64,000 nucleotides of DNA from Halorubrum aethiopicum (GTDB lineage Archaea; Halobacteriota; Halobacteria; Halobacteriales; Haloferacaceae). A model generated the notes under the pieces. It worked only from the letters and a program-made list of their open reading frames with translations, had not been told where the DNA came from and searched no databases. The stretch is taken from contig NZ_LOAJ01000001.1 of NCBI RefSeq assembly GCF_001542905.1, positions 248,001 through 312,000 of the forward strand. Reading direction: 5' to 3'. The position numbers and the translations under genes are program-made. Numbering within the stretch: position 1 is the stretch's first letter; each line of letters opens with the position of its first letter. Below, one piece after another: positions 779-41,268 of the stretch.

Positions 779-1459
779 TCAGAACTCGCCGAGTCGCGAC
801 TGGCCGCCGGAGCCTCCCTCCCCCTCCGCGGCGACGCCGCTCAGTTCGCCCGAACGGGCGATCGTCTCGAAAAAGCCCTCGCGCTGGCTCCGGTCGTACA
901 GCGTCGCCGCCGGGTGGACCGAGAGGAGGACGCGCCGCGACTCCCCGCCGATCCGGGCGTCGACGACGTCGCCCGACTCGGCCGTGATGCGCACCGAGCG
1001 ACCGAGCAGGTGCTCGCTCGGGACCTTCCCCAGCGTCACGATCAGTTCCGGGTCGAGTCCGGCGATCTCCGCCTCGAGGTGGCCGCGACAGTTCGCCAGC
1101 TCCTCGGTCGTCGGGTCGCGGTTCTCCGGGGGACGACACCGCACGCAGTTCGTGATCCGCACGTCGGCCCGCGCGAGCCCCGCGTCCCGCAGCGCCTCGT
1201 CGAGGACGTCGCCCGACCGGCCCACGAACGGCTCGCCCTCCTCGTCCTCGTTCGCGCCGGGACCCTCGCCGACGAACAGCAGGTCGGCGTCCGTCGGGCC
1301 GACGCCCTCGACGATCCGGCTCCGCGACTCGACCAGCGCCGGGCATCGTTCACAGGAACCCACGCGCAGATCGGAATCCAACGCGCCGTCTCCGGGGCCG
1401 TCCCCGAGCGCGCCGTCGCCGGAGTCGGCCGCGTCGGCCCCCTCTCCGTCCTCGCTCAT
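779..1459 (-). CDS. udg: Family-4 uracil-DNA glycosylase
   Basis: DNA repair enzyme removing uracil from deaminated DNA; family 4 enzymes carry a 4Fe-4S cluster. Visible motifs are LFVGEGPGANEDEEGEPFVG (uracil-binding motif A, residues about 60-80), ITNCVRCRPPENRDPT, and the motif-B segment SVHPAATLYD near the C-terminus. Cysteines in CERC, CVRC and ANCRG are suitable cluster ligands. The protein is 226 residues, the usual size. The ATG at 1459 (MSEDGEG) is preferred over one 45 bases upstream because a TATA element (gtataag, 1483-1489 on the plus strand) lies 27 bases before it, giving a leaderless mRNA. The acidic N-terminal 40 residues are a haloarchaeal extension. It lies 41 bases downstream of the glycerate kinase gene on the same strand. 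Confidence 0.93.
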   Translation of the reverse strand: MSEDGEGADAADSGDGALGDGPGDGALDSDLRVGSCERCPALVESRSRIVEGVGPTDADLLFVGEGPGANEDEEGEPFVGRSGDVLDEALRDAGLARADVRITNCVRCRPPENRDPTTEELANCRGHLEAEIAGLDPELIVTLGKVPSEHLLGRSVRITAESGDVVDARIGGESRRVLLSVHPAATLYDRSQREGFFETIARSGELSGVAAEGEGGSGGQSRLGEF

Positions 1460-1482
1460 GTCACCGACTCCGGGAGCGGGGC

Positions 1483-1489
1483 GTATAAG
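1483..1489 (-). promoter_or_regulatory. TATA element of the uracil-DNA glycosylase gene
   Basis: The minus strand reads cttatac about 27 bases before the ATG at 1459, the spacing that puts the transcription start on the start codon in haloarchaea (leaderless mRNA). It decides between two in-frame ATGs. Confidence 0.6.
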
Positions 1490-1500
1490 TTCGGACGGTC

Positions 1501-2910
1501 TCACCCGGTCTCGTCCTCGACGACGACCGCCCGGAGGTCGTTCACGTTCGTCCCCGTCGGGCCGGTCCGAAGCAGGGCGTCGGCCTCGGCCAGAAGCGGG
1601 GCCGCGTCGTGGCGGTCGAGCGCGTCCCGCGCGGCCGGCGCGTGGAGCGTCGTCGCGTCGACGATCCCGCCCGCGGCGTCGCTCGCCCCGTCGATCCCGT
1701 CGGTGTCGACGCTCGCGACGACCGACCCCTCCCGGTCGAGTTCGATCCCCGCGCTCGCGACGAGTTCGGCGTTCGGCCCGCCGCTTCCACTGTCACCGGT
1801 TCCGTCCGCGAGGGTCACGGTCGTCTCCCCGCCCGTGAGCAACACCGCGGGCGGGGAGACGGGCCGGTCCTCGGCGGCGCACGCCTCGGCGAGTTCGGCG
1901 TGCTCGCGGCCCGCGTCGCGCGCCTCGCCCGCGACGTCGTCCGCGACGACGACCCCCTCGTACCCCCGGTCGCCGGCGGCGGTCGCGGCGGCGTCGAGGG
2001 CGGTCCGCGCGTTGCCGACGACGACGGTTCGCGCGCGATCGAAGGCCGGATCGTCGGATTCCGGCGTCTCGGGGCGCTCGCCGGCGGCCCCCGCGCGGAG
2101 GTGATCGCGGACGGCGGCGGGGAGGTCGAGCCCGTACCGCTCGACCACCTCGAGCGCGTCGTCGTACGTCGAGGGGTCGGGAACGGTCGGGCCGCTGCCG
2201 ATCACGGCGAGGTCGTCGCCGACCACGTCGCTCACGGCGAGCGTGACGACCGTCGCGGGGGCCGCCGTCCGGGCGAGCAGCCCGCCCTTGACCGCCGAGC
2301 AGTGCTTCCTGACCGCGTTGATCTCGTCTATCGACGCGCCGCAGGCGAGCAGGGCGTCGGTGAGCTCGCGCAGGTCGTCGACGCCGATCGGGTCGGCCGG
2401 GACGGCGAGGAGCGCGCTCGCGCCGCCCGTGACGACTGCGACGACGAGGTCGTCCGGACCGGCGGCCGCCGCGGCGTCGACGACGCGGCGCGCGTGATCG
2501 ACGCCGCGCTCGGTCGGGAGCGGGTGGTCGCCGGGGAGAACGTCGAGCGAGCGATCCGCTCCGGACGGCTCCGTGGACTCCGGGGACGCCGGCTCGTCCG
2601 TGATCACCGTCCCGCCGGCGAACCGGTCGCAGAGGGGGTCGCCCAGTCGGTCTGCGAGCGCCGTCGCGACGCCGTCGGCCGCCTTGCCGGCTCCGACGAT
2701 CCGGACCGATCCGTACGCGTCGAGGTCGTACTCGGCCGCCTCGCCGTCGACCGCCGCGACCCGGAGGGTCCCGTCCGCTACCGAGACCGCGTCGGCGACG
2801 ACGTTCGCCGGGAGCGCCGCCTCGATCCCCGCGGCGAGACAGTCGAGCGCGACGCCGTGAGCCGGCGTCGAGACGATCCGGTCGCGGTCGCGGAAGGTGA
2901 CCTCACCCAT
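1501..2910 (-). CDS. gckA: Glycerate 2-kinase (MOFRL family)
   Basis: Phosphorylates D-glycerate to 2-phosphoglycerate in the cytoplasm. The 469-residue protein has the GckA/GLYCTK layout: an N-terminal Rossmann-like region (VRIVGAGKAADGVATALADR; GDHPLPTERGV), the segment VAVVTGGASALLAVP, the stretch ALLACGASIDEINAVRKHCS followed by AVKGGLLA, and a C-terminal MOFRL domain ending with LLRTGPTGTNVNDLRAVVV. The ATG at 2910 (MGEVTFRDRDRIV) is chosen over the upstream in-frame start at 3015 because a TATA-like caaatag (2935-2941) sits 28 bases before it and the extra N-terminus has no family match. It is divergent from the molybdoenzyme gene. In haloarchaea this enzyme serves sugar-acid or glycerate use; the pathway here is not indicated by neighbours. 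Confidence 0.92.
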   Translation of the reverse strand: MGEVTFRDRDRIVSTPAHGVALDCLAAGIEAALPANVVADAVSVADGTLRVAAVDGEAAEYDLDAYGSVRIVGAGKAADGVATALADRLGDPLCDRFAGGTVITDEPASPESTEPSGADRSLDVLPGDHPLPTERGVDHARRVVDAAAAAGPDDLVVAVVTGGASALLAVPADPIGVDDLRELTDALLACGASIDEINAVRKHCSAVKGGLLARTAAPATVVTLAVSDVVGDDLAVIGSGPTVPDPSTYDDALEVVERYGLDLPAAVRDHLRAGAAGERPETPESDDPAFDRARTVVVGNARTALDAAATAAGDRGYEGVVVADDVAGEARDAGREHAELAEACAAEDRPVSPPAVLLTGGETTVTLADGTGDSGSGGPNAELVASAGIELDREGSVVASVDTDGIDGASDAAGGIVDATTLHAPAARDALDRHDAAPLLAEADALLRTGPTGTNVNDLRAVVVEDETG

Positions 2911-2962
2911 GGCGGGGCCGTGGGCGGCCGGGGACAAATAGCCGCGCCATCGACCCGACACG

Positions 2963-2969
2963 TTATATG
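2963..2969 (+). promoter_or_regulatory. TATA element upstream of the mini-ORF and molybdoenzyme
   Basis: The sequence ttatatg lies 26 bases before the ATG at 2992 but about 103 bases before the molybdoenzyme ATG at 3069. The transcript should therefore begin at the mini-ORF, not at the enzyme gene. Confidence 0.6.
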
Positions 2970-2991
2970 CTAACAGCCCAACGAAGGGTAG

Positions 2992-3063
2992 ATGCACCGA
3001 ACGCGACACGCGCACCGCGGAGCCGCGGTGGTCGAACCGTCCCGAACCGCCGGTGACGGGTGA
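2992..3063 (+). CDS. Possible 23-residue leader peptide upstream of the molybdoenzyme
   Basis: An ATG placed exactly where a leaderless transcript would start opens a 23-codon reading frame (MHRTRHAHRGAAVVEPSRTA, then GDG) ending in TGA at 3061-3063. The stop overlaps a GTG at 3060 (GTGA) in frame with the downstream enzyme, whose ATG follows at 3069. This arrangement would allow translational coupling or a leader-peptide control. The peptide is rich in Arg and His and resembles nothing I know. The ORF is seen directly; its translation is inference. Confidence 0.4.
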   Translation: MHRTRHAHRGAAVVEPSRTAGDG

Positions 3064-3068
3064 TCGCC

Positions 3069-4730
3069 ATGGGTCCGAGCGCGTCCGACGACGGGAGCGA
3101 CGCCGCGGGTCGAACGGAGCGCGGGGACGGCGACGGGAACGGGGACGATCCCGCCGCCGCGATCGACCGCGAGACGGTCCTCCGTCGGGCGCTGGGCGGG
3201 GGCGTCGTCGGCGCGGCGTGGGTCGCCGGGCTGTTCGCGGCCGCGCCCCTCGTCGGCGGGTTCGGGATCGAGCCCGTCGCCGAAGGGGTGATCGCGCTCT
3301 CGCCCGGCTGGCTGTCGACGATCGCGATCGACCTCCTCGGGTTCTACGCGACGCCGACGCTCGTCGCCGGCCTGGTCGCCGCCGTCGTCGTCGCGGCCGC
3401 GGCCGTCGGGGTCCTCCTCCCCGTCGCGGCCGATCGGGCGGGAGGACCGGCGGACGAGCGGACGGGGAACCGGTCGATCCCGAACGCCCTCCGGGCGCGG
3501 ACCGGCTCCGCGGTCGCGGCGGTCGCCGTCGCCGCGACGCTCCCGCTGTTTCTCGCCGTCGGCGCGGGGATCTCCCTCGCGCTCGTCGTCGGCGTCGCCG
3601 TCGCCGTCGTGCCGCCCGCGCTCGTCGCCCGACGGGTCCGGGGAACCGACCGGCTTCGGGGGCGACGGGGGTTCCTCCGGCGCGTCGGCGGGCTCGCGGT
3701 CGCGGGGAGCGTCCCCCTCGCGGGACTCCGGTTCCTGTTCGGTCGGCTGGGCGGCCCGGAGGAGAGCGAGCGGGTCGCGGAGCCGCTCGAGCGGTCGGTG
3801 TCGCCGCCGAGCGGGGACCCCGGGTTCTACTTCGGGACGATGCCGCCCGCGGTCACGCCGCCGGCGGACCACTACGTCGTCGACGTGAACGTGAACCCGC
3901 CGGTGGTCGATCCCGAGTCGTGGAGCCTCGACGTCGACGGGGCGGTCGCGGAGCCGTACTCGCTCGCGTACGACGACCTGGTGGGCCACGAGGAGAGCCT
4001 CGAGCAGACGACGACGATGGTCTGTATCTCCAACGAGGTCGGCGGCGACCTGATCGGCACGGCCCACTGGACCGGGGTCCAACTGTCCGACCTCGTCGCG
4101 GCGGCGGACCCGGCCGAGGGCGCGGTCGACGTGGTCACGCACGCCGCCGACGGCTACAGCGAGGCGATCCCGATGGAGATCGTCGAGCGCGACGACATCC
4201 TGATCGCCTACGGGATGGGCGACCGGACGCTGGAGACCGAACACGGGTTCCCGGCCAGACTGCTCGTCCCCGGTCGGTACGGCATGAAGATGACGAAGTG
4301 GATAGAGCGGATCGAGGTCTCGGGCGCCGACCACGAGGCGTACTGGGAGGAGCGCGGCTGGGACGAGGAGGCGGTCGCGAACACGATGTCGTACGTGCGG
4401 ACCGGCGTCCGCGACGGCGACCGGGTCCTCGTCGGCGGGGTCGCGTTCGGCGGGCTGGAGACCGGCCTCGAGGAGCTGGCGGGCGTCGAGGTCAGCGTCG
4501 ACGGCGGGGAGACGTGGAACGCGGGGGAGCTGGAGCCGCAGATCGCCCCGCACGCGTGGCGGCGCTGGCGGTACGCGTTCGACGCGCCCGACCGGACCGA
4601 GTTCGACGTCGTCGTCCGCGCGGTCCGCCGCGACGGGACGGTCCAGACCGAGGAGCGGACGGGGCCGCGGCCGGGCGGGTCGACGGGGTGGCACCGGCGG
4701 ACCGTCGAGGTCGCGTCGAACTCAGAATAA
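3069..4730 (+). CDS. Membrane-anchored sulfite oxidase/YedY-type molybdopterin oxidoreductase
   Basis: 553 residues. The N-terminal part is membrane: hydrophobic helices at about 41-65, 95-119, 146-165, 167-186 and 205-226. The outer catalytic domain (about 255-430) is of the sulfite oxidase superfamily: SWSLDVDGAVAEPYSLAYDD, the cofactor cysteine in TTTMVCISNEVGGDLIGTAH (Cys319), WTGVQLSDLV, and RLLVPGRYGMKMTKWIERIE. A C-terminal Ig-like dimerisation domain (GGVAFGGLETGLEELAGVEV, then VDGGETWN) follows. It would oxidise or reduce a small oxyanion or sulfoxide at the outer face and exchange electrons through its membrane part; the substrate is unknown. The ATG at 3069 or the GTG at 3060 may be used. 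Both neighbours point away from it, so it is a single-gene unit apart from the small upstream ORF. Confidence 0.85.
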   Translation: MGPSASDDGSDAAGRTERGDGDGNGDDPAAAIDRETVLRRALGGGVVGAAWVAGLFAAAPLVGGFGIEPVAEGVIALSPGWLSTIAIDLLGFYATPTLVAGLVAAVVVAAAAVGVLLPVAADRAGGPADERTGNRSIPNALRARTGSAVAAVAVAATLPLFLAVGAGISLALVVGVAVAVVPPALVARRVRGTDRLRGRRGFLRRVGGLAVAGSVPLAGLRFLFGRLGGPEESERVAEPLERSVSPPSGDPGFYFGTMPPAVTPPADHYVVDVNVNPPVVDPESWSLDVDGAVAEPYSLAYDDLVGHEESLEQTTTMVCISNEVGGDLIGTAHWTGVQLSDLVAAADPAEGAVDVVTHAADGYSEAIPMEIVERDDILIAYGMGDRTLETEHGFPARLLVPGRYGMKMTKWIERIEVSGADHEAYWEERGWDEEAVANTMSYVRTGVRDGDRVLVGGVAFGGLETGLEELAGVEVSVDGGETWNAGELEPQIAPHAWRRWRYAFDAPDRTEFDVVVRAVRRDGTVQTEERTGPRPGGSTGWHRRTVEVASNSE

Positions 4731-32061: not shown

Positions 32062-32186
32062 CACGTCGCGGTATGCTCGTCCGGCGGTATATATTCGGGT
32101 GGACGCGTCGCTCGATCCGCCGCGTCGGTTTTCACGGGGGACAGACATATTACCGAGGCTCGCCCGGATACGCACGGGAGAGTATC
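32062..32186. promoter_or_regulatory. Divergent promoter region of the CBS transporter and DICT genes
   Basis: A minus-strand aatatatac (32088-32095) is about 30 bases before the ATG at 32061. A plus-strand catatta (32146-32152) is about 38 bases before the ATG at 32187. Confidence 0.5.
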
Positions 32187-33020
32187 ATGACGGATCCGGA
32201 GTCGCTGCGCGCGTTCTTCGAGGAGATCGAGGCCCCCGATCGCTCCCTCGTCGTGCTCAACCGGTCGTCGCCGGACCCGGTCCGGGGGCTGCTCGACTCG
32301 CTGCTCGAGGGCCAGCCCGTGTCGATACGCAACGCGGAGGTGCCCGACGGCGACGACGACGTGGTCGCGCTGATCGAGGACGGCGAGGTGCTCGCGCAGT
32401 CGACGCTCGACGACCTGCTGGAGTCGGTGCTTCTGATCAACTCGGACCTCTATCGGACGGGCGCGATCGACCTCGGGGAGGTGGAACTCCCCGACGTGCT
32501 CCGCGGGCTCGACGAGATGCCGTTCAGGGTCCGGGGGTACCCCGAGTCCAACAAGGAGAAGCTGCTCTTGATCGTCATCTCGCGGGTGATAGAGCGGATC
32601 GCGAACGAGACGGGCGGCGGGACGCTCCGGGCGTCGTTCCAGCGACTCTCGAGGCTCAGAGACGAGCGCGGCACTTACGAGGTGTACGAGTCGGTCGCGC
32701 GAAGCGGCGTCGACGTCCACGTCTACGGGATGGACGACGCCGAGCCCGCCGAGGAGCTGCCGGCGACGGTTCACACGGGCTCGTCGTACCCGTATCGCCG
32801 GTCGTGGTTCGTGGTCTTCACCCCGCCGGGAAAGAGCGACCCCGAGAGCGGGACGGACGACTGGGACGGGAGCGACATCGGGAACGGGAGCGACGGAGAA
32901 AACGGCGACCACGCCGCGCTCGTCGCGCTGGAGGACGAGCCCAACGTCTGGGACGGCTTCTGGACGTTCCGTCCCGAACTCGTGTCCCGGATCGACCGCT
33001 ACATCGCCGATCACGTCTGA
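32187..33020 (+). CDS. DICT-type sensory domain protein
   Basis: 277 residues. It starts MTDPESLRAFFEEIEAPDRS and contains LVVLNRSSPDPVRGLLDSLL, then LIVISRVIERIANETGGGTL, RASFQRLSRLRDERGTYEVY and VDVHVYGMDDAEPAEELPAT. The ISR.IE..A...G.G.L..sFQ.lSR..dE.GT..VY pattern is the DICT domain, found with diguanylate cyclases and two-component proteins. No kinase or output domain is attached. The C-terminal part WFVVFTPPGKSDPESGTDDW ... ALVALEDEPNVWDGFWTFRP keeps the family's final strands with an acidic insertion. Probably a stand-alone signalling protein. Confidence 0.85.
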   Translation: MTDPESLRAFFEEIEAPDRSLVVLNRSSPDPVRGLLDSLLEGQPVSIRNAEVPDGDDDVVALIEDGEVLAQSTLDDLLESVLLINSDLYRTGAIDLGEVELPDVLRGLDEMPFRVRGYPESNKEKLLLIVISRVIERIANETGGGTLRASFQRLSRLRDERGTYEVYESVARSGVDVHVYGMDDAEPAEELPATVHTGSSYPYRRSWFVVFTPPGKSDPESGTDDWDGSDIGNGSDGENGDHAALVALEDEPNVWDGFWTFRPELVSRIDRYIADHV

Positions 33021-33102: not shown

Positions 33103-35088
33103 ATGGCAAATCGACACGAAGCCGCCGACGCGAGTCGGCGTCTCGGCCGGCGGAACCTCCTCGCGACGATCGGGGCCGCGGGGACCGCCGGGTTCGCCGG
33201 GTGCGGTGGGCAGGGGGCCACCGAACCCTCGGAGTCCGACGGCTCCGACGCGGACGACGGCGGGCTGTTTCCCCTCCAGGTCCGTCTCGAGACCGGCGGG
33301 ACGGACGAGCGGATCCGGATGGTCGAGCTCATCGCGGAGTCCCTCCAGCAGACCGGGTACTTCGAGACGGAGGTGGAGACCTACGAGTGGAACGCCTACC
33401 TCGACCGGGTGATCAATCCGGCGTACCAGGAGAACGGCTACCTCCCCGCCATCGGCCTCTCCGGGACGTTCAACCCCCACAGCTTCTGTAACGTGATCCA
33501 CAACTCGGCGAACGTCGGCGCGTGCTGTAACCTGACGGGCATCTCGGACCCCGAGCTGGACGAGCTGCTCGCCTCCGCCCGGTACGGGATCGATGTCGTC
33601 GAGGACCCGCAGCTCCGCGCGGAGACGTACGACGAGATCTGGCGGACCCTCGCCGAGGAGCGGTACACCTCCTTCACCCACTTCGGCGTGGAGACCGCCG
33701 TGACCAGCGCGGCCGTCCACGGGTTCGGGGTGTGGCCGTTCCAGGAGGGGCTCTTCGGCTACGCCCTGTTCTCCCCACAGGACGGGCAGGTCGCCTGGAT
33801 CGACCGGGAGAATCCGGCCGGCGAGTCCGACCTCGCGGACCTCGTGACGGGCGGGACGCTGACGGGGGCGGTCTCGACGAACCCGAGCTCGTTCGACCCG
33901 CCCCACAGCAGCGACACCACGTCGACGATGCTCCAGAACCTCCTCTTCGAGGGGCTCGTCGTCAACGACGCGGAGGGAAACGTCCACCCGTGGCTCGCCG
34001 AGCGCTACGAGCTTCTCGACGTTCGAGACGTCGGTCGTGCCGCCTACGAGGAGTACATGCGCACCGTGGGGACCACGGCGGAGGGCGCGGTCGACGCCGA
34101 CGAGCAGGTGATCGTCCGACACCCCGAGGACGATCCCGCGGCCGACGACGAGGTCCGCGTCCTGCTGCCCGAGGACGCGCGCGAGGCGGCCGCGGACGGG
34201 ACGTACGGGATGCGGTTCCGCTACGAGCTCCACGAGGGCGTCGCGTTCCACGACGGGAGCGAGCTGACCGCCGAGGACGTCGTCGCGAGCTACGAGTACT
34301 ACGAGAACTCGGCGACCGCCCCGCAGACGTTCGACTCCGTTCTCGCCGCCGTCGCGGTCGACGACTACGTCGTCGACGTGTACGCGCAGGTCCCCGACGC
34401 GGAGGCGGAACGCGAGCTGCCGGGGATATTCGTCCTCAGCGCGGACCAGATCGCCGCCGTCGAGAAGGGCGGTATCGACCCGCGCGAGGGGGTCACGCCG
34501 ATCGGAACCGGGCCGTACGAGTTCGGCGAGTTCGTCGACGAGGAGTACCTCGAGGTCTCGCGGTTCGACGACTACTGGGTCGGATCGCGGGGGATCGCGG
34601 AGGCGTTCGCGTGGTTCGACGGCCTGGACGCCTTCCCGGACGGCCCCGCGATCGACGCCGTCGAGGTGGAGGTCGTCCCCGACGACGCGACGCGGACGGG
34701 CGCGCTCCGGAACGGCGAGGTCGACCTGACCTACGACGTCGCGAGCGGGACGCTCGAGGACTTCGACGACGCCGACGACTTCCTCGTACACGCCGTCGAG
34801 GCGGGCGGATACGACTACCTCCAGTATCCGGTGAACGTCGAGCCGTGGGACGACCCCCGGCTCCGGGAGGCCGTCAACCACCTCGTTCCCCGTCAGCGGA
34901 TCGTCGACAACGTGTTGAACGGGTGGGCCGAGCCCGCCTGGACGCCCATCCCGCAGATCGCCCGCGGATCGGGGACGGCCGACTACGAGGCGCTCGAGGA
35001 CGCCGTCAGGCCGCTGAACGAGTACGACGTCGAGCGGGCGGAGGAGCTGCTCGACGAGATGGCCGCCGAGTACGGCGAGTCGTCGTGA
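33103..35088 (+). CDS. dppA: Oligopeptide-type ABC substrate-binding lipoprotein with apparently permuted lobes
   Basis: 661 residues from the ATG at 33103. A Tat signal (GRRNLLATIGAAGTAGFAGC; Cys34 lipidated) is followed at about 50-240 by what is normally the C-terminal lobe of family-5 binding proteins: FPLQVRLETGGTDERIRMVE, ESLQQTGYFETEVETYEWNA, YLDRV, then DPELDELLASARYG. Only from about residue 250 does the usual N-terminal lobe start (GGTLTGAVSTNPSSFDPPHS, LQNLLFEGLVVNDAEGNVHP). It runs through AFHDGSELTAEDVVASYEYY and TPIGTGPYEFGEF to DDPRLREAVNHLVPRQRIVD and NEYDVERAEELLDEMAAEYG at the very end. Joining the end to residue 50 restores the family order. It binds peptides or related solutes for the permeases downstream. 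Confidence 0.88.
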   Translation: MANRHEAADASRRLGRRNLLATIGAAGTAGFAGCGGQGATEPSESDGSDADDGGLFPLQVRLETGGTDERIRMVELIAESLQQTGYFETEVETYEWNAYLDRVINPAYQENGYLPAIGLSGTFNPHSFCNVIHNSANVGACCNLTGISDPELDELLASARYGIDVVEDPQLRAETYDEIWRTLAEERYTSFTHFGVETAVTSAAVHGFGVWPFQEGLFGYALFSPQDGQVAWIDRENPAGESDLADLVTGGTLTGAVSTNPSSFDPPHSSDTTSTMLQNLLFEGLVVNDAEGNVHPWLAERYELLDVRDVGRAAYEEYMRTVGTTAEGAVDADEQVIVRHPEDDPAADDEVRVLLPEDAREAAADGTYGMRFRYELHEGVAFHDGSELTAEDVVASYEYYENSATAPQTFDSVLAAVAVDDYVVDVYAQVPDAEAERELPGIFVLSADQIAAVEKGGIDPREGVTPIGTGPYEFGEFVDEEYLEVSRFDDYWVGSRGIAEAFAWFDGLDAFPDGPAIDAVEVEVVPDDATRTGALRNGEVDLTYDVASGTLEDFDDADDFLVHAVEAGGYDYLQYPVNVEPWDDPRLREAVNHLVPRQRIVDNVLNGWAEPAWTPIPQIARGSGTADYEALEDAVRPLNEYDVERAEELLDEMAAEYGESS

Positions 35089-35104: not shown

Positions 35105-36061
35105 ATGAGTCTCAGACGGTTCGTCCTCCGGCGCGCCCTCGCCGTGGTCCCGGTGCTGTTCGGCGTGTCGGCGGTCACCTTCGGGCTGTTCCACCTGACG
35201 CCCGGCGACCCGGTCTCGCAGGTGGTCGCGTTGAACCCGGACGTGAGCGCGGCCGAGGAGGCGCGCCTCCGCGAGCGGTGGGGGCTCTCGGGGCCGGTGT
35301 GGCGGCAGTATCTCGAGTGGCTCTCGAACGTGCTGGTCGGCGACTTCGGCCGGGAGATCCGGACGGGGCGGGCGGTCTCGGGGATCGTGTGGCGTCGGCT
35401 TCCCGAGACGATCGCCTTGGGGATCTTCGGCTGGCTCTTCGCGGTCGCGATCGCGATCCCGACGGGGATCTACGCGGCGGTGAACAAGGGGAAACTCGGC
35501 GACGTCGCGAGCCGCGTGCTGGCGCTGTCGGGGGTCTCGATCCCGAACTTCTGGCTCGGCCTGCTGTTGATCCTCGTCTTCTCGCTGTACCTCGGGCTGT
35601 TCCCGGTGTTACCCCCCTCGCGGCTGCCGCTGTATCACCCGGAGACGCTCCGGTACCTCCTGTTGCCGGGGGTGACGGTCGGGACCGCGGCGGCCGCGAG
35701 CCTCATGCGCGTGATGCGGACGTCGATGGCCGAGGAGCTGAACGCGGAGTACGTCACCGCGGCGCGCGCGAGGGGCCTGCCCGAGCGCACGGTCGTGTTC
35801 AAACACGTCCTGCGGAACTCGCTCGTCTCGGTGGTCACGCTCGCGGCCACGCTGACGGCCGGCATCGTCGCCGGCTCGGTCGTCGTCGAGAGCGTGTTCA
35901 ACTGGCCCGGACTCGGTTCCGAGTTCGTTCAAGCGATCGATCGGCGGGAGGTCAACGTCGTGATGGCGATCACGCTCGTGACCGCCGTCGCCGTCGTGGT
36001 CGCGAACTTCCTCGCGGACGTCCTGTACGCCGTGCTCGACCCGAGGATCAGGTATGACTGA
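35105..36061 (+). CDS. dppB: ABC transporter permease, DppB type
   Basis: 318 residues with six helices. It starts RRFVLRRALAVVPVLFGVSA and VTFGLFHLTPGDPV, the DppB opening. The ATPase-contacting EAA loop is YVTAARARGLPERTVVFKHV followed by LRNSLVSVVTLAA. SVVVESVFNWPGLGSEFVQA is the usual C-terminal signature. It forms the membrane channel with DppC. It starts 16 bases after the binding-protein stop and overlaps dppC by 8 bases. Confidence 0.95.
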   Translation: MSLRRFVLRRALAVVPVLFGVSAVTFGLFHLTPGDPVSQVVALNPDVSAAEEARLRERWGLSGPVWRQYLEWLSNVLVGDFGREIRTGRAVSGIVWRRLPETIALGIFGWLFAVAIAIPTGIYAAVNKGKLGDVASRVLALSGVSIPNFWLGLLLILVFSLYLGLFPVLPPSRLPLYHPETLRYLLLPGVTVGTAAAASLMRVMRTSMAEELNAEYVTAARARGLPERTVVFKHVLRNSLVSVVTLAATLTAGIVAGSVVVESVFNWPGLGSEFVQAIDRREVNVVMAITLVTAVAVVVANFLADVLYAVLDPRIRYD

Positions 36062-37319
36062 GGACGGAGAGCGCGGTGCCGACTCGGAGGGCAGCCGGGC
36101 GACCGACTCGGAGGGGAGCCCGTCGGTCGGATCGGGCGAGAACCGAACGCGAAGCCGGACCGCGACGCGGGGGCGGCTCCGGATCGTCGGGTTCGACGCG
36201 GACCACGTCCGCGACCGCGAGTCGCTCGCCGAGCGGCGCGAGAGGGACGGCACGCCCGGCGAAAGCCGGGGAACGCCCGGCGAGAGCGACGACCGCGCGA
36301 ACGCAGAGGGAGTGACGAACGGCGCGGCAGCCGGCCGGTGGCGACGCGGGCTCCGGCGGTTCCGGCGGAACCGTTCGGCGATGGTCGCGCTCGCGGTCGT
36401 CGTCGCGATGGCGCTCGTCTCGCTTCTCGCGCGGCCCGTCGAGGTCTTCGGCGTGGTCGTCCAGCCGTTCGCGCTCGCGCCCTACGACCCGACGACGATC
36501 CTCTACCTCTCCGTGGACCCGAGCGTGAGCCCGTACGACCCGCCCTCGGCGCGGTTCCCGATGGGCGTCGACGGCGCGGGACGCGACCTGTTCTCGCGGG
36601 TCCTCGTCGGCGGGCGCTACAGCATCTCGATCGGGTTCGTGGTCGTCGGACTGACGGCGACGTTCGGGCTGGCCTACGGGGCGGTCTCGGGATACTACGG
36701 CGGGGCGGTCGACGAGGTCATGATGCGGGTCGTCGACGTGGTCTTCGCGTTCCCCGGCCTCGTGTTGGCGCTCGTCGTCGTCGCCACCCTCGGCGGGGGG
36801 TACTGGCAGCTGGTGCTCGCGTTCAGCCTCTTCGGGTGGGCCGGCTACGCCCGACTCGTCCGGGGTGAGGTGTTGTCGATCGCGGAGCGCGACTACGTGC
36901 TGGCGGCGAAGGCGGTCGGCGCGCGCGACCGCGGCGTCATCCGCCGACACGTGGCGCCGAACGCGCTGTCGCCGCTCGTCGTGTTGGCGTCGCTCAACGT
37001 CGGCAGCGTCGTGATCGGCGTCGCCGCGCTCGGCTTCCTCGGGCTCGGGATGGACCCGAGCACCGCCGAGTGGGGAACGATGCTCGACGCGACGCGCGAG
37101 ACGCTGATCCAGGGGCCGGGCGGGGCGATCCCGTGGTGGGCGACGGTGTACCCCGGCGCGGCGATCTTCGTCTTCGTGCTGGCGATGAACGTGATCGGCG
37201 ACGGGATCAACGACGCGCTCGACGCGCGCGAGATCGGCGTGGCCCGCGGGGCAAGCGGGGGCCACGGGGATCCGCGTGACGGCGGGGGGAACCGCGAGAG
37301 CCGGGGTGGCGAGCCGTGA
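36054..37319 (+). CDS. dppC: ABC transporter permease, DppC type, with long acidic N-terminus
   Basis: 421 residues. The first 105 residues are hydrophilic and low complexity (for example SRGTPGESDDRANAEG), far longer than the usual DppC start. Six helices follow. Conserved parts are FRRNRSAMVALAVVVAMALV, SARFPMGVDGAGRDLFSRVL (the GTDxxGRD-like motif), the EAA loop YVLAAKAVGARDRGVIRRHV with APNALSPLVV, and GFLGLGMDPSTAEWGTMLDA. It pairs with DppB. Its stop overlaps the GTG of dppD (GTGA). Confidence 0.94.
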   Translation: MTEDGERGADSEGSRATDSEGSPSVGSGENRTRSRTATRGRLRIVGFDADHVRDRESLAERRERDGTPGESRGTPGESDDRANAEGVTNGAAAGRWRRGLRRFRRNRSAMVALAVVVAMALVSLLARPVEVFGVVVQPFALAPYDPTTILYLSVDPSVSPYDPPSARFPMGVDGAGRDLFSRVLVGGRYSISIGFVVVGLTATFGLAYGAVSGYYGGAVDEVMMRVVDVVFAFPGLVLALVVVATLGGGYWQLVLAFSLFGWAGYARLVRGEVLSIAERDYVLAAKAVGARDRGVIRRHVAPNALSPLVVLASLNVGSVVIGVAALGFLGLGMDPSTAEWGTMLDATRETLIQGPGGAIPWWATVYPGAAIFVFVLAMNVIGDGINDALDAREIGVARGASGGHGDPRDGGGNRESRGGEP

Positions 37320-38425
37320 CCGCCCTGCTCGAGGTCGAGGACCTGACGGTCCGCTTTTACACCGAGGAGGGCGTCGTGACCGCGGTCGACGGGCTCTCCT
37401 ACCGGGTCGAGGCCGCGGAGACGTTCGGCGTCGTCGGGGAGAGCGGGGCGGGAAAGAGCGTGGCCGCGCTGTCGGTGCTCGGGCTGATCGACCGACCCGG
37501 ACGGATCGAAGGCGGCGAGGTCCGGTTCAAGGGCGAGGACCTCCTGTCGATGGACGAGTCCGCGCTCCGGTCGGTCCGCGGCGACGAGATCGGCGTGGTC
37601 TTTCAGGACGCCCGCGCCGCGTTGAACCCCGTCTACACCGTCGGCGAGCAGATCGCCGAGACGATCGAACACCACCTGGGATACGATCCGGCGGTGGCGA
37701 AGGCGCGGGCGATACGCCTGCTCGACCGCGTCGGGATCGCCGATCCGGCGGCCCGATACTCGGCGTACCCCCACGAGTTCTCCGGCGGGATGTGTCAGCG
37801 CGCGACGATCGCGATGGCGCTGTCGTGCGATCCGGACCTGATAATCGCCGACGAGCCGACGACCGCCCTCGACGTCACCGTCGAGGCGCGGATCCTGGAT
37901 CTGCTCGCCGAACTGGCCGACGAGTTCGACGTCGCCGTCCAGCTCATCACCCACGATCTCGGGGTGATCGCCGGGACCTGTGACCGGGCGATGGTGATGT
38001 ACGCGGGCGAGGCCGTCGAGACGGCTCCGGTCGAGGAGCTGTACTACGACCCGAAACACCCGTACACCGCGGGCCTCATGAGCGCGATCCCGCGGATCGG
38101 CGACGACCGCGACCGGCTCGCGACGATCCCGGGGACGATGCCGGACCTGATCGAGGTCCCCTCCGGCTGTCGGTTCCACCCGCGGTGCCCCTTCGCCGAG
38201 GAGGCGTGTACCCGGACGCATCCCTCCTTCGTCGACCCCGAGACGGGCGAGGCGGCGACGCTCGACGACGACCGCGCGGCCGCCTGCCTCGAGTACACGG
38301 AGGGGCTCTCGGGCGGGCTGGACTACTCGGTGGAGGTCGACGGCGAGAGGGGGAGGGGGTCCGGCGGCCCGGACGCGGAGACGGAGAGGGACGCCGAACG
38401 CGACGAGGGTGGTCTCGATGAGTGA
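37316..38425 (+). CDS. dppD: Peptide ABC transporter ATPase, DppD type
   Basis: 369 residues from a GTG overlapping the dppC stop. Walker [22 protein letters not shown]-loop [20 protein letters not shown], signature [20 protein letters not shown], Walker [22 protein letters not shown]-loop [20 protein letters not shown]. The C-terminal oligopeptide domain has [20 protein letters not shown] with HPSF, carrying the cysteines that in relatives bind an iron-sulfur cluster. An acidic tail follows. The stop overlaps the dppF start by 8 bases (ATGAGTGA). Confidence 0.96.
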
Positions 38426-39899
38426 CGGCGACGCCGGCGACGCCAGCGACGCCGGCGAACCGGTCCTCCGCGTCGAGGGCGTGAAGACGCACTACGACTC
38501 GACCGGCGGGTTCCTCGACCGGCTGCTCGGGCGGTCGCGGCGGGTGCGGGCGGTCGACGGCGTGGACTTCGAGCTTCGCGCGGGCGAGACGCTCGGCGTC
38601 GTCGGCGAGTCCGGCTGCGGGAAGACGACCCTCGGTCGGAGCGTGCTCCGGCTGGTCGAGCCGACGGCCGGCTCCGTGTATCACCGCGGCGAGGACCTGA
38701 CGGCGCTGTCGAGCGCCGCGCTCCGCGACCGCCGGAAGGACCTCCAGTACGTCTTTCAGGACCCGCTCTCGAGTCTGGATCCCCGCCTCACCGCCGGCGA
38801 CGTCGTCGGCGAGCCGCTCGACGTCCACGGGCTCGCGACGGGCACGGAGCGCGACGCGCGGGTCCGCGAGCTGTTGGAGACGGTCGGGCTGAAGCCGAGT
38901 CACGCCGCCCGGTACCCACACGAGTTCTCCGGCGGGCAGCGCCAGCGGCTCGGGATCGCCCGCGCGCTCGCGGTCGACCCCGAGGTGATCGTCTGTGACG
39001 AGCCGGTGAGCGCGCTCGACGCCAGCGTCCAGGCGCAGATCCTCAACCTCCTCTCGGACCTCCAGGCGGAGTTCGGGCTCGCGTACGTGTTCATCGCCCA
39101 CGACCTGCGCGTGATCGAGCACGTCTCCGACCGGGTGGCCGTAATGTACCTCGGCGAGTTCGTCGAGCGCGGGCCGACCGAGGCGGTGTTCGAACCGCCG
39201 TACCACCCGTACACCGAGGCGCTGCTCTCCGCGATCCCCGAGCCCGACCCGCTGTGGGAGGGCGACGGGATCCGCCTCGAGGGGACGGTCCCGTCACCGG
39301 TCGATCCCCCCTCAGGCTGTCGGTTCCACACCCGGTGTCCGCGGCTCGTCCCGGCCGCCGAGTACGACCTCCCCGGGGAGGTCTGGCGCTCCCTGACGGA
39401 CCTGAAACGTCGGACGAGGGAGGCCGACGGCGTGGCGTCCCTGACGGCGGTGAGCCCGTCGGGAGAGGCAGGCGGATCGCCGGCCGGAGACGACGCCGTC
39501 GATCCCTTCGATCCGACCAGTCCCGGCGATCCGACCGACTCCACCAGCCCGGCCGACTCGACCGGCCCGGCCGATCCGACCGAGGTCCCCCGGGAGACGT
39601 TCGACGCGCTGGTTCGCGAGGAGTTCGGCCTCCCCGAGCCGCTCCCGGACGCCGACGCGGAGGCGACCGTCGCCGACGCGATCGGCGCGCTCCACGACCA
39701 CCGGATCGACGAGGCCGCGGAACTGCTCGACGCCGCGTTCGTCTCGCCCTGCGAGCGCCACCATCCGACGGAGTACCAGGTCGGCACGGACCACGGGATC
39801 GCGTGTCTCCGGTACGACGACGGGTTCGACGAGGAGACCGGAACGTTCGCTGACGGGGCGGAGCCGACCGGATCGGAGCCGACCGGGTCGGCGGAGTAG
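38418..39899 (+). CDS. dppF: Peptide ABC transporter ATPase, DppF type, with split C-terminal cysteine domain
   Basis: 493 residues, about 100 more than usual. ATPase motifs are complete: [100 protein letters not shown]. The C-terminal oligopeptide domain starts at [20 protein letters not shown], but its closing cysteines ([22 protein letters not shown]) come about 120 residues later. Between them lie a Pro/Thr/Ser/Asp repeat stretch ([20 protein letters not shown]) and a helical piece ([17 protein letters not shown]). The insertion is in frame and well coded. It should supply energy for the importer together with DppD. Confidence 0.94.
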
Positions 39900-39970: not shown

Positions 39971-40516
39971 ATGCGACGGATCTACGAGTCGGACGCGCTC
40001 CGGCGCGACGACGACGACCCGCACGCGCCGGCGGAACGGGAAGACGAGGGAGCGATCCAGGCGCTGCGCTCGGTCCCCGCGACGGCGCTCAGCGACCGTC
40101 TCGTCCCCCGCGGGCTGCGTCATCGGTTCGTCTCCGTCGACGTTGAGACGCCGCGGCGGGAGTTCGCGGTCGGCGAGCCGGTCCCGTTCGTCGTCACCTT
40201 CCGCAACCGGGTCCCGTTCCCGGTGTCGATCGCGACCGCGTCGCCGCTGCCGTGGGTCTGGACCGTCGACGGCGACGTCGAGGCCGCGGCCGCGGACGTT
40301 TCCCTCCGCGACCCGCCCGACGAGCCGGGTCGGTTCGCGTTCGACCGCGGCGAGCGAAAGCGCTTCCGCAGGCGGTGGGACGGGCTGTTTCGGGTGAGCG
40401 ACTCGGAGTGGGTCCCGGCCGAGCCCGGCGAGCACGTCATCGGGGCGGCGGCGAACGTCGCGGACGCGGGCGCGAAGGGGTTGCGCGCGGAGACGACGGT
40501 CCGGCTCGTGGAGTGA
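39971..40516 (+). CDS. Haloarchaeal protein with BsuPI-like beta-sandwich
   Basis: 181 residues. A charged N-terminus (to about 45) precedes VSVDVETPRREFAVGEPVPF, VVTFRNRVPFPVSIATASPL, PWVWTVDGDVEAAAADVSLR and FAFDRGERKRFRRRWDGLFR, ending EPGEHVIGAAANVADAGAKG. The order of strands and the F..GE...F...WDG...... PGEH pattern resemble the intracellular proteinase inhibitor BsuPI fold. No signal peptide is seen. It is 71 bases after dppF on the same strand, but a TATA-like tttaggtcc (about 39940) suggests its own transcript. Role unknown. Confidence 0.72.
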   Translation: MRRIYESDALRRDDDDPHAPAEREDEGAIQALRSVPATALSDRLVPRGLRHRFVSVDVETPRREFAVGEPVPFVVTFRNRVPFPVSIATASPLPWVWTVDGDVEAAAADVSLRDPPDEPGRFAFDRGERKRFRRRWDGLFRVSDSEWVPAEPGEHVIGAAANVADAGAKGLRAETTVRLVE

Positions 40517-40571: not shown

Positions 40572-41268
40572 GGCAGTGTTGAGATAAGGTCGAAGGATGA
40601 GGCGGTCAAAAGATCGAGTGGTCTATGCTCTCGTTCGACCGCCTCAGCGAGGATAGCGGTTGTATCGAGTTAGATTTTCTGGAGCGAGAGGCGACACCCG
40701 AGCCAGCGATGAAGCTCGGTATCCGACTCCATTTGGCTGGGTTATCACTTTCGGATACCGTCTCATTTCTTGAAAAGTTGGGTGTCGATCGGCATCGAAC
40801 CACCGTCCATCGGTGGGTACAGAAAGCCGACCTACAGCCGACAGACGGTGCCGATCCGAATCACGTTGCGGTCGATGAAACCGTGATTCAGCTCAATTCT
40901 GAACAATATTGGCTGTACGCTGCTGTCGATCCCGATACGAACCGCCTGCTCCACGTTCGGCTCTACCCGACGAGAACAAACGCGATCTCCTCGATGTTTC
41001 TCTCTGAATTGCGTGAGAAACATCAGGTGGACGACGCGGTCTTTCTCGTCGATGGTGCTCCGTGGTTACAGGCAGCCTGCCATCGTCACGGGCTCCGATT
41101 CCAACACGTCACACATGGGAATCGGAATGCCGTCGAACGTGTCTTTCGTGAAGTAAAACGCCGAACAAACCAATTCTCAAATACGTTTAGCCACGTCGAA
41201 GCGAAGACCGCCGAAAATTGGTTACAAGCGTTCGCCTTCGCATGGAATCAGCTTATCTAAACACTACC
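40572..41268 (+). mobile_element. IS6-family insertion sequence, apparently complete
   Basis: About 697 bases. The left end ggcagtgttgagataag (40572-40588) and the reverse complement of the right end, ggtagtgtttagataag, match in 15 of 17 positions as terminal inverted repeats. A single transposase gene fills the element. GC content is far lower than in the neighbours. I see no clear 8-base target duplication at the flanks. Confidence 0.85.
40625..41260 (+). CDS. IS6-family DDE transposase
   Basis: 211 residues, the usual length for haloarchaeal IS6 members. An N-terminal helix-turn-helix (RLHLAGLSLSDTVSFLEKLG, VDRHRTTVHRWVQKADLQPT) precedes the catalytic core: first Asp in NHVAVDETVIQLNSEQYWLY, second Asp in DDAVFLVDGAPWLQAACHRH, Glu in NRNAVERVFREVKRRTNQFS. 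The K/R after the Glu (ERVFREVKRRT) is conserved. It should catalyse replicative transposition. All catalytic residues are present, so the element may be active. Codon use and base composition differ clearly from the flanking genes. Confidence 0.95.
   Translation: MLSFDRLSEDSGCIELDFLEREATPEPAMKLGIRLHLAGLSLSDTVSFLEKLGVDRHRTTVHRWVQKADLQPTDGADPNHVAVDETVIQLNSEQYWLYAAVDPDTNRLLHVRLYPTRTNAISSMFLSELREKHQVDDAVFLVDGAPWLQAACHRHGLRFQHVTHGNRNAVERVFREVKRRTNQFSNTFSHVEAKTAENWLQAFAFAWNQLI

Follow-up and report, generated by a model that had tools for sequence, protein, structure and literature searches.

A circularly permuted DppA-like lipoprotein gene in Halorubrum aethiopicum, very probably one of several permutations among archaeal family-5 binding proteins

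Can a peptide-binding protein encoded in an otherwise standard Dpp operon carry its two lobes in reverse order, and if so, how did that order come about? The question is raised by a gene in the window studied here, a stretch of 64,000 nucleotides from Halorubrum aethiopicum. The gene is a single unbroken open reading frame on the forward strand, running from an ATG at 33103 to a stop codon at 35086..35088 (+), and encodes a protein of 661 amino acids (P0001). An earlier note on this DNA had claimed that the protein begins with the lobe that is normally C-terminal in family-5 solute-binding proteins (SBPs), continues with the N-terminal lobe, and would regain the normal order if its end were joined to its start. 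Our explanation of the locus as a whole, which we consider very probable, is that it holds a circularly permuted DppA-like lipoprotein gene with an ordinary predicted fold, that the halves were swapped in place, and that this permutation is one of several.

The encoded chain leads from a signal peptide through the C-terminal lobe (residues 55–234) and a junction to the N-terminal part (residues 249–661). Residues 1–33 (33103..33201, +) were recognised in the sequence as a Tat-type lipoprotein signal peptide, with twin arginines (RR16–17) in the Tat motif RRLGRRNLL and a lipobox ending in a cysteine (AGC34), so that both features expected of an archaeal Tat lipoprotein are present. R16, R17 and C34 were invariant across 26 full-length collinear homologues (hereafter T1). 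An acidic low-complexity linker, evident in the sequence, extends from the predicted lipidated Cys34 to residue 54 (33202..33264, +), and AlphaFold assigned a pLDDT below 50 to residues 1–50. The relocated C-terminal lobe (33265..33804, +) corresponds to positions 414–586 of the canonical HMM and to residues 347–489 of AppA in the PDB. It is followed by a junction of residues 235–248 (33805..33846, +), where the canonical C-terminus meets the canonical mature N-terminus in the T1 pattern W[IL]DR..(A)..(T)DLSDL.EGG. The N-terminal part (33847..35085, +), delimited by Pfam (PF00496), the HMM, the alignment to a canonical orthologue and AlphaFold, ends after the helix NEYDVERAEELLDEMAAEYG, where a canonical chain would enter the C-lobe; the new C-terminus sits in the variable loop preceding that lobe. 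The boundaries given in the earlier note (residues 50–240 for the first lobe, and an end at AEELLDEMAAEYG) were right to within a few residues.

The sole Pfam profile to match P0001 was PF00496 (SBP_bac_5; E 6.5e-59, 200 bits, cut-off 32.4), and the match spanned residues 369–655, equivalent to only positions 16–278 of the 368 in the profile; domain annotation of haloarchaeal SBPs gives such truncated Pfam matches where the protein is complete. The PDB matches shown were likewise family-5 proteins. In a phmmer search of the PDB, AppA (1xoc) aligned in three pieces of rotated order, with the C-terminal lobe first in P0001: residues 249–306 matched chain positions 20–77, residues 369–620 matched 79–316, and residues 43–195 matched 347–489. 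The canonical orthologue L013 (genome G048) matched in two segments, residues 234–658 to 42–460 and residues 51–236 to 457–644, each at 59% identity, and these matches abut once the end of P0001 is joined to its start. Chance similarity is excluded by the E-values of the two halves (1e-173 and 9e-76). The lobe order and the end-to-start continuity proposed from the sequence were hence borne out. P0001 has the full two-lobed SBP_bac_5 protein, including the C-lobe (residues 55–234; AlphaFold pLDDT 90.9), and the N part that should stand ahead of the C-lobe follows it instead; it is a permuted variant of this family.

AlphaFold predicted the mature chain with a mean pLDDT of 90.9 and a pTM of 0.88, low confidence being confined to residues 1–50. 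When only the 26 permuted sequences were aligned the pLDDT was 65.6, and it rose to 90.9 once canonical relatives had been included as split halves, each half an unaltered row of its own (alignment A2). The best PDB fold matches of the model in Foldseek were family-5 SBPs with TM-scores of approximately 0.5; because Foldseek alignments follow the order of the chain and capture chiefly the N-terminal part, these scores reflect the collinear part only, and support the family but not the permutation. Judging from the model, P0001 should adopt the ordinary two-lobed fold of a binding protein.

The gene is followed by genes for a DppB-type permease (35105..36061, +; PF00528, PF19300), a DppC-type permease (36054..37319, +; PF00528, PF12911), a DppD-type ATPase (37316..38425, +; PF00005, oligo_HPY) and a DppF-type ATPase (38409..39899, +; PF00005, oligo_HPY), the last three assigned by Pfam and conserved gene order. 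This is the arrangement of a DppABCDF importer, with an SBP gene ahead of two permeases and two oligo_HPY ATPases, and the otherwise standard operon described in the earlier note was thereby confirmed. The DppB gene adjoins canonical and permuted SBP genes alike, and the order SBP–DppB–DppC–DppD–DppF is almost always the same for both. These shared neighbours indicate that the operons are orthologous and that rearrangement of the binding protein took place in situ. We infer both ligand and transport function, namely that P0001 should deliver peptides to DppBC/DF. Just 3' of DppF, a 181-aa ORF with no Pfam match (39971–40516, +) is conserved in most permuted and canonical operons, and is probably an unrecognised part of the operon. 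A DICT-domain protein (PF10069) is encoded 5' of the SBP gene (32073–33020, +) and occurs near the operon only in close Halorubrum and Halobellus relatives; a transposase-like ORF lies soon after the operon (40625–41260, +).

The earlier note had suggested looking for the same order in other haloarchaea, and it was found in approximately 40 genomes, at 50–92% identity and upstream of the same DppBCDF genes. T1 proteins occur in Halorubrum, Halobellus captivus, Natronocalculus, Natronorubrum, Halobiforma, Natronococcus, Natronolimnohabitans, Halovivax and Halostagnicola, while canonical-order homologues were found in Halalkalicoccus, Halocatena, strain SHRA6, Halomicrobium, Halopiger, Salinarchaeum and others. 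A search with PF00496 returned seven SBP_bac_5 proteins in the H. aethiopicum genome itself, six of which are permuted (P0001 and L163–L167), the seventh (L161) being canonical by the canonical full-length HMM. Conservation across several haloarchaeal genera, the five further permuted proteins of the same genome and the repeated events described below go beyond what had been noted before. Across 15 haloarchaeal genomes with matches, at least 31 of approximately 86 SBP_bac_5 genes are permuted, the total having been counted by hand and each permuted gene verified at its locus. Among the approximately 93 SBP_bac_5 matches listed for 15 genomes of a bacterial class, at most one was permuted: one interrupted gene gave a partial match, and none had its pieces reversed. 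The difference between the two groups gave a Fisher p of approximately 1e-10 on these hand counts, a value that is descriptive only since the genomes are related. Nearly all SBP_bac_5 proteins of other archaea of the phylum were canonical, with two clear exceptions (L263 and L253), and a plasmid search returned a single relative, which aligned in two pieces.

The swap itself is visible in the DNA of close relatives. In two Halorubrum genes, one permuted (L242) and one canonical (L259), the flanks are collinear at 89.6% and 82% nucleotide identity and the signal region at 76%; the N and C halves, at 76% and 75%, have traded places. The T1 gene of Natronocalculus (L123) and the canonical gene of SHRA6 (L136), which are the same genes as L032 and L055, likewise have exchanged halves between collinear flanks and a collinear signal peptide, and at the protein level each half is 73% identical and the signal peptide 82%. 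The halves have been swapped in place at the DNA level in both pairs.

The most likely route to the P0001 gene would begin with a tandem duplication fused in frame (SP–N–C–N–C), from which the leading N part and the trailing C lobe would then have been lost, the signal peptide and linker being retained at the 5' end throughout. In P0001 a short linker joins the canonical N- and C-termini, and the new termini lie in the variable loop that leads from the last N-part helix to the first strand of the C-lobe. As a consequence, the Tat signal and the lipid anchor would now enter via the C-terminal lobe, and as the predicted fold is retained, docking to DppBC is presumably retained as well. A gene in another haloarchaeon (L266, genome G038; minus strand, ~814–4404) looks like the expected duplication intermediate. 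It holds two SBP_bac_5 copies in one open frame, 69% identical over 545 residues and separated by a short acidic linker, with a Tat signal on the first copy only; if the leading N part and the trailing C lobe were removed, the order left would be exactly that of T1. L266 makes the duplication route plausible, but, lying in a different subfamily, does not prove it for the P0001 gene, and neither a duplication intermediate nor a gene with a duplicated lobe was found in the subfamily of P0001 among approximately 140 loci. This tandem-fused protein may possess two binding sites.

Five break sites were distinguished on the canonical HMM. The break at approximately position 412 is that of T1 and of a large clade including L163–L167, whereas T2 (L019, L020 and L087–L090), along with L242, L244, L247 and L248, breaks near position 390. 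T3 (L016) breaks near position 145, T4 (L179 and L188) near position 486, together with L263 of another archaeal family, and L253 near position 281. T3 and L253 are single sequences each; the assignment of L179 comes from inspection of its sequence. In the T3 case, the orthologous Dpp operon of a metagenome genome (CSSed162cmA_517; L016/L144, one contig), the first part of the N-lobe has been relocated to the C-terminus; a dedicated search found no further T3 relatives in the same order. L253 (995–3362; genome G471), from a non-haloarchaeal archaeon, is apparently anchored by a C-terminal transmembrane segment and not by an N-terminal lipid.

A tree of 138 proteins did not unite the permuted ones in one clade, and its well-supported branches forced at least seven changes of state, a count that is approximate given the long branches of this quick LG+G4 tree. 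Two canonical lineages, the SHRA6 gene and the Halalkalicoccus/Halocatena group, were nested among the permuted genes of T1, and a single T1 clade was rejected by the whole protein (p 3e-5), by the N half (0.002), by the C half (0.009) and by the neighbouring permease and ATPase genes (p 6e-12). The trees of the N half and the C half agreed, both mixing T1 with canonical genes, which indicates that the halves share one history. Taken together, the trees and the five break sites require that permutation arose several times independently in archaeal family-5 SBPs.

Chimeric contigs and domain fusions do occur, and T3 is known from one metagenome contig, so an artefact of assembly or sequencing, or an unrelated extra domain at the front of the chain, had to be weighed for P0001. 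An assembly or sequencing artefact is out, the same order being present in approximately 40 independently sequenced genomes including a complete chromosome, and a frameshift artefact as the source of the permuted order was tested and rejected. The earlier note had named an extra domain with a complete C-lobe beyond residue 600 as the finding that would overturn its reading, but the chain ends at residue 661, residues 55–234 match the orthologue's canonical C-lobe at 59% identity, and the whole mature chain folds confidently as one unit in AlphaFold; the chance of either reading is negligible. A permuted look could also arise convergently if the N-terminal part came from one SBP gene and the C-terminal lobe from another, a possibility raised for Treponema pallidum MglB-2 (PMC4990184). 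Such a fusion is very improbable here, as both halves are equally near the same orthologue (59/59%, and 73/73% in L032/L055) and both half trees place the nested canonical genes alike, with no differing phylogenies seen.

T1 could have come about by one gain with reversions, by repeated gains, or by the sorting out of an ancestral gene that carried one lobe in duplicate. A single gain at the base of the clade, followed by reversion to the canonical order in two or more lineages (SHRA6 and the Halalkalicoccus/Halocatena group), falls a little short of an even chance in our estimation. The junction linker, similar across all T1 lineages, and the three changes counted on the rooted tree favour it, as does the rejection of one T1 clade by both the SBP and operon trees. 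The return could have occurred by re-permutation, but the ancestral N–C boundary would then have to be rebuilt without a scar, or through such sorting of an ancestral gene, and no gene with a duplicated C-lobe was seen in the subfamily; moreover, the backbone branches are short and the composition of some rows deviates. Repeated gains, each in a different lineage but always at the same loop, would equally leave T1 non-monophyletic, and other permuted groups of the family do break at that loop, but similar linkers would be unexpected had variable low-complexity linkers been fused independently, and this history appears unlikely. It is an evenly balanced judgement whether lobe order in haloarchaeal family-5 SBPs is labile in evolution, with permuted and canonical forms interconverted repeatedly in place in front of one and the same transporter, by way of tandem-fused intermediates and at five or more break loops.

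Most natural circular permutations are known as isolated, ancient events that separate distantly related homologues. In the reading preferred here, an in-place permutation that is one of several, haloarchaeal homologues of approximately 65–75% protein identity that share one genomic position have their halves cleanly exchanged, such swaps recur at several sites, and permuted proteins make up the majority of the family in the H. aethiopicum genome. What is new is that permutation in family 5 would be recurrent and is caught among close relatives. The proteins provide a natural series in which one can test how permutations originate, whether they revert, and whether the position of the tether affects delivery to the transporter. 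In the open journal literature covered by the search, neither permuted family-5 SBPs nor haloarchaeal cases were found, and T. pallidum MglB-2 (Tp0684) was the only natural precedent to emerge among SBPs.

With DppA, OppA and AppA, the peptide-binding proteins of ABC importers in SBP_bac_5 (PF00496), P0001 shares its sequence family, predicted fold, export as a lipoprotein and an operon with DppBCDF, but it differs in lobe order and in a lipid anchor attached via the C-terminal lobe. The canonical orthologues of Halalkalicoccus, Halocatena, SHRA6 and Halomicrobium (among L131–L142) lie in the same operon and are 41–60% identical to P0001 in the best segment, their order being canonical. TpMglB-2, described as a naturally circularly permuted SBP of 'Type Ic / Cluster Bc', resembles P0001 in being a tethered lipoprotein, and its authors propose membrane tethering as a possible reason for the permutation (PMC4990184). 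P0001 shares the circular permutation of that class but not its Type I (cluster B) sugar-binding fold. In TpMglB-2 just part of the N-lobe moves, and the moved part is so poorly identical that a common origin was doubted (PMC4990184). That report is without recurrent events (PMC4990184), whereas the family of P0001 appears to have been permuted recurrently.
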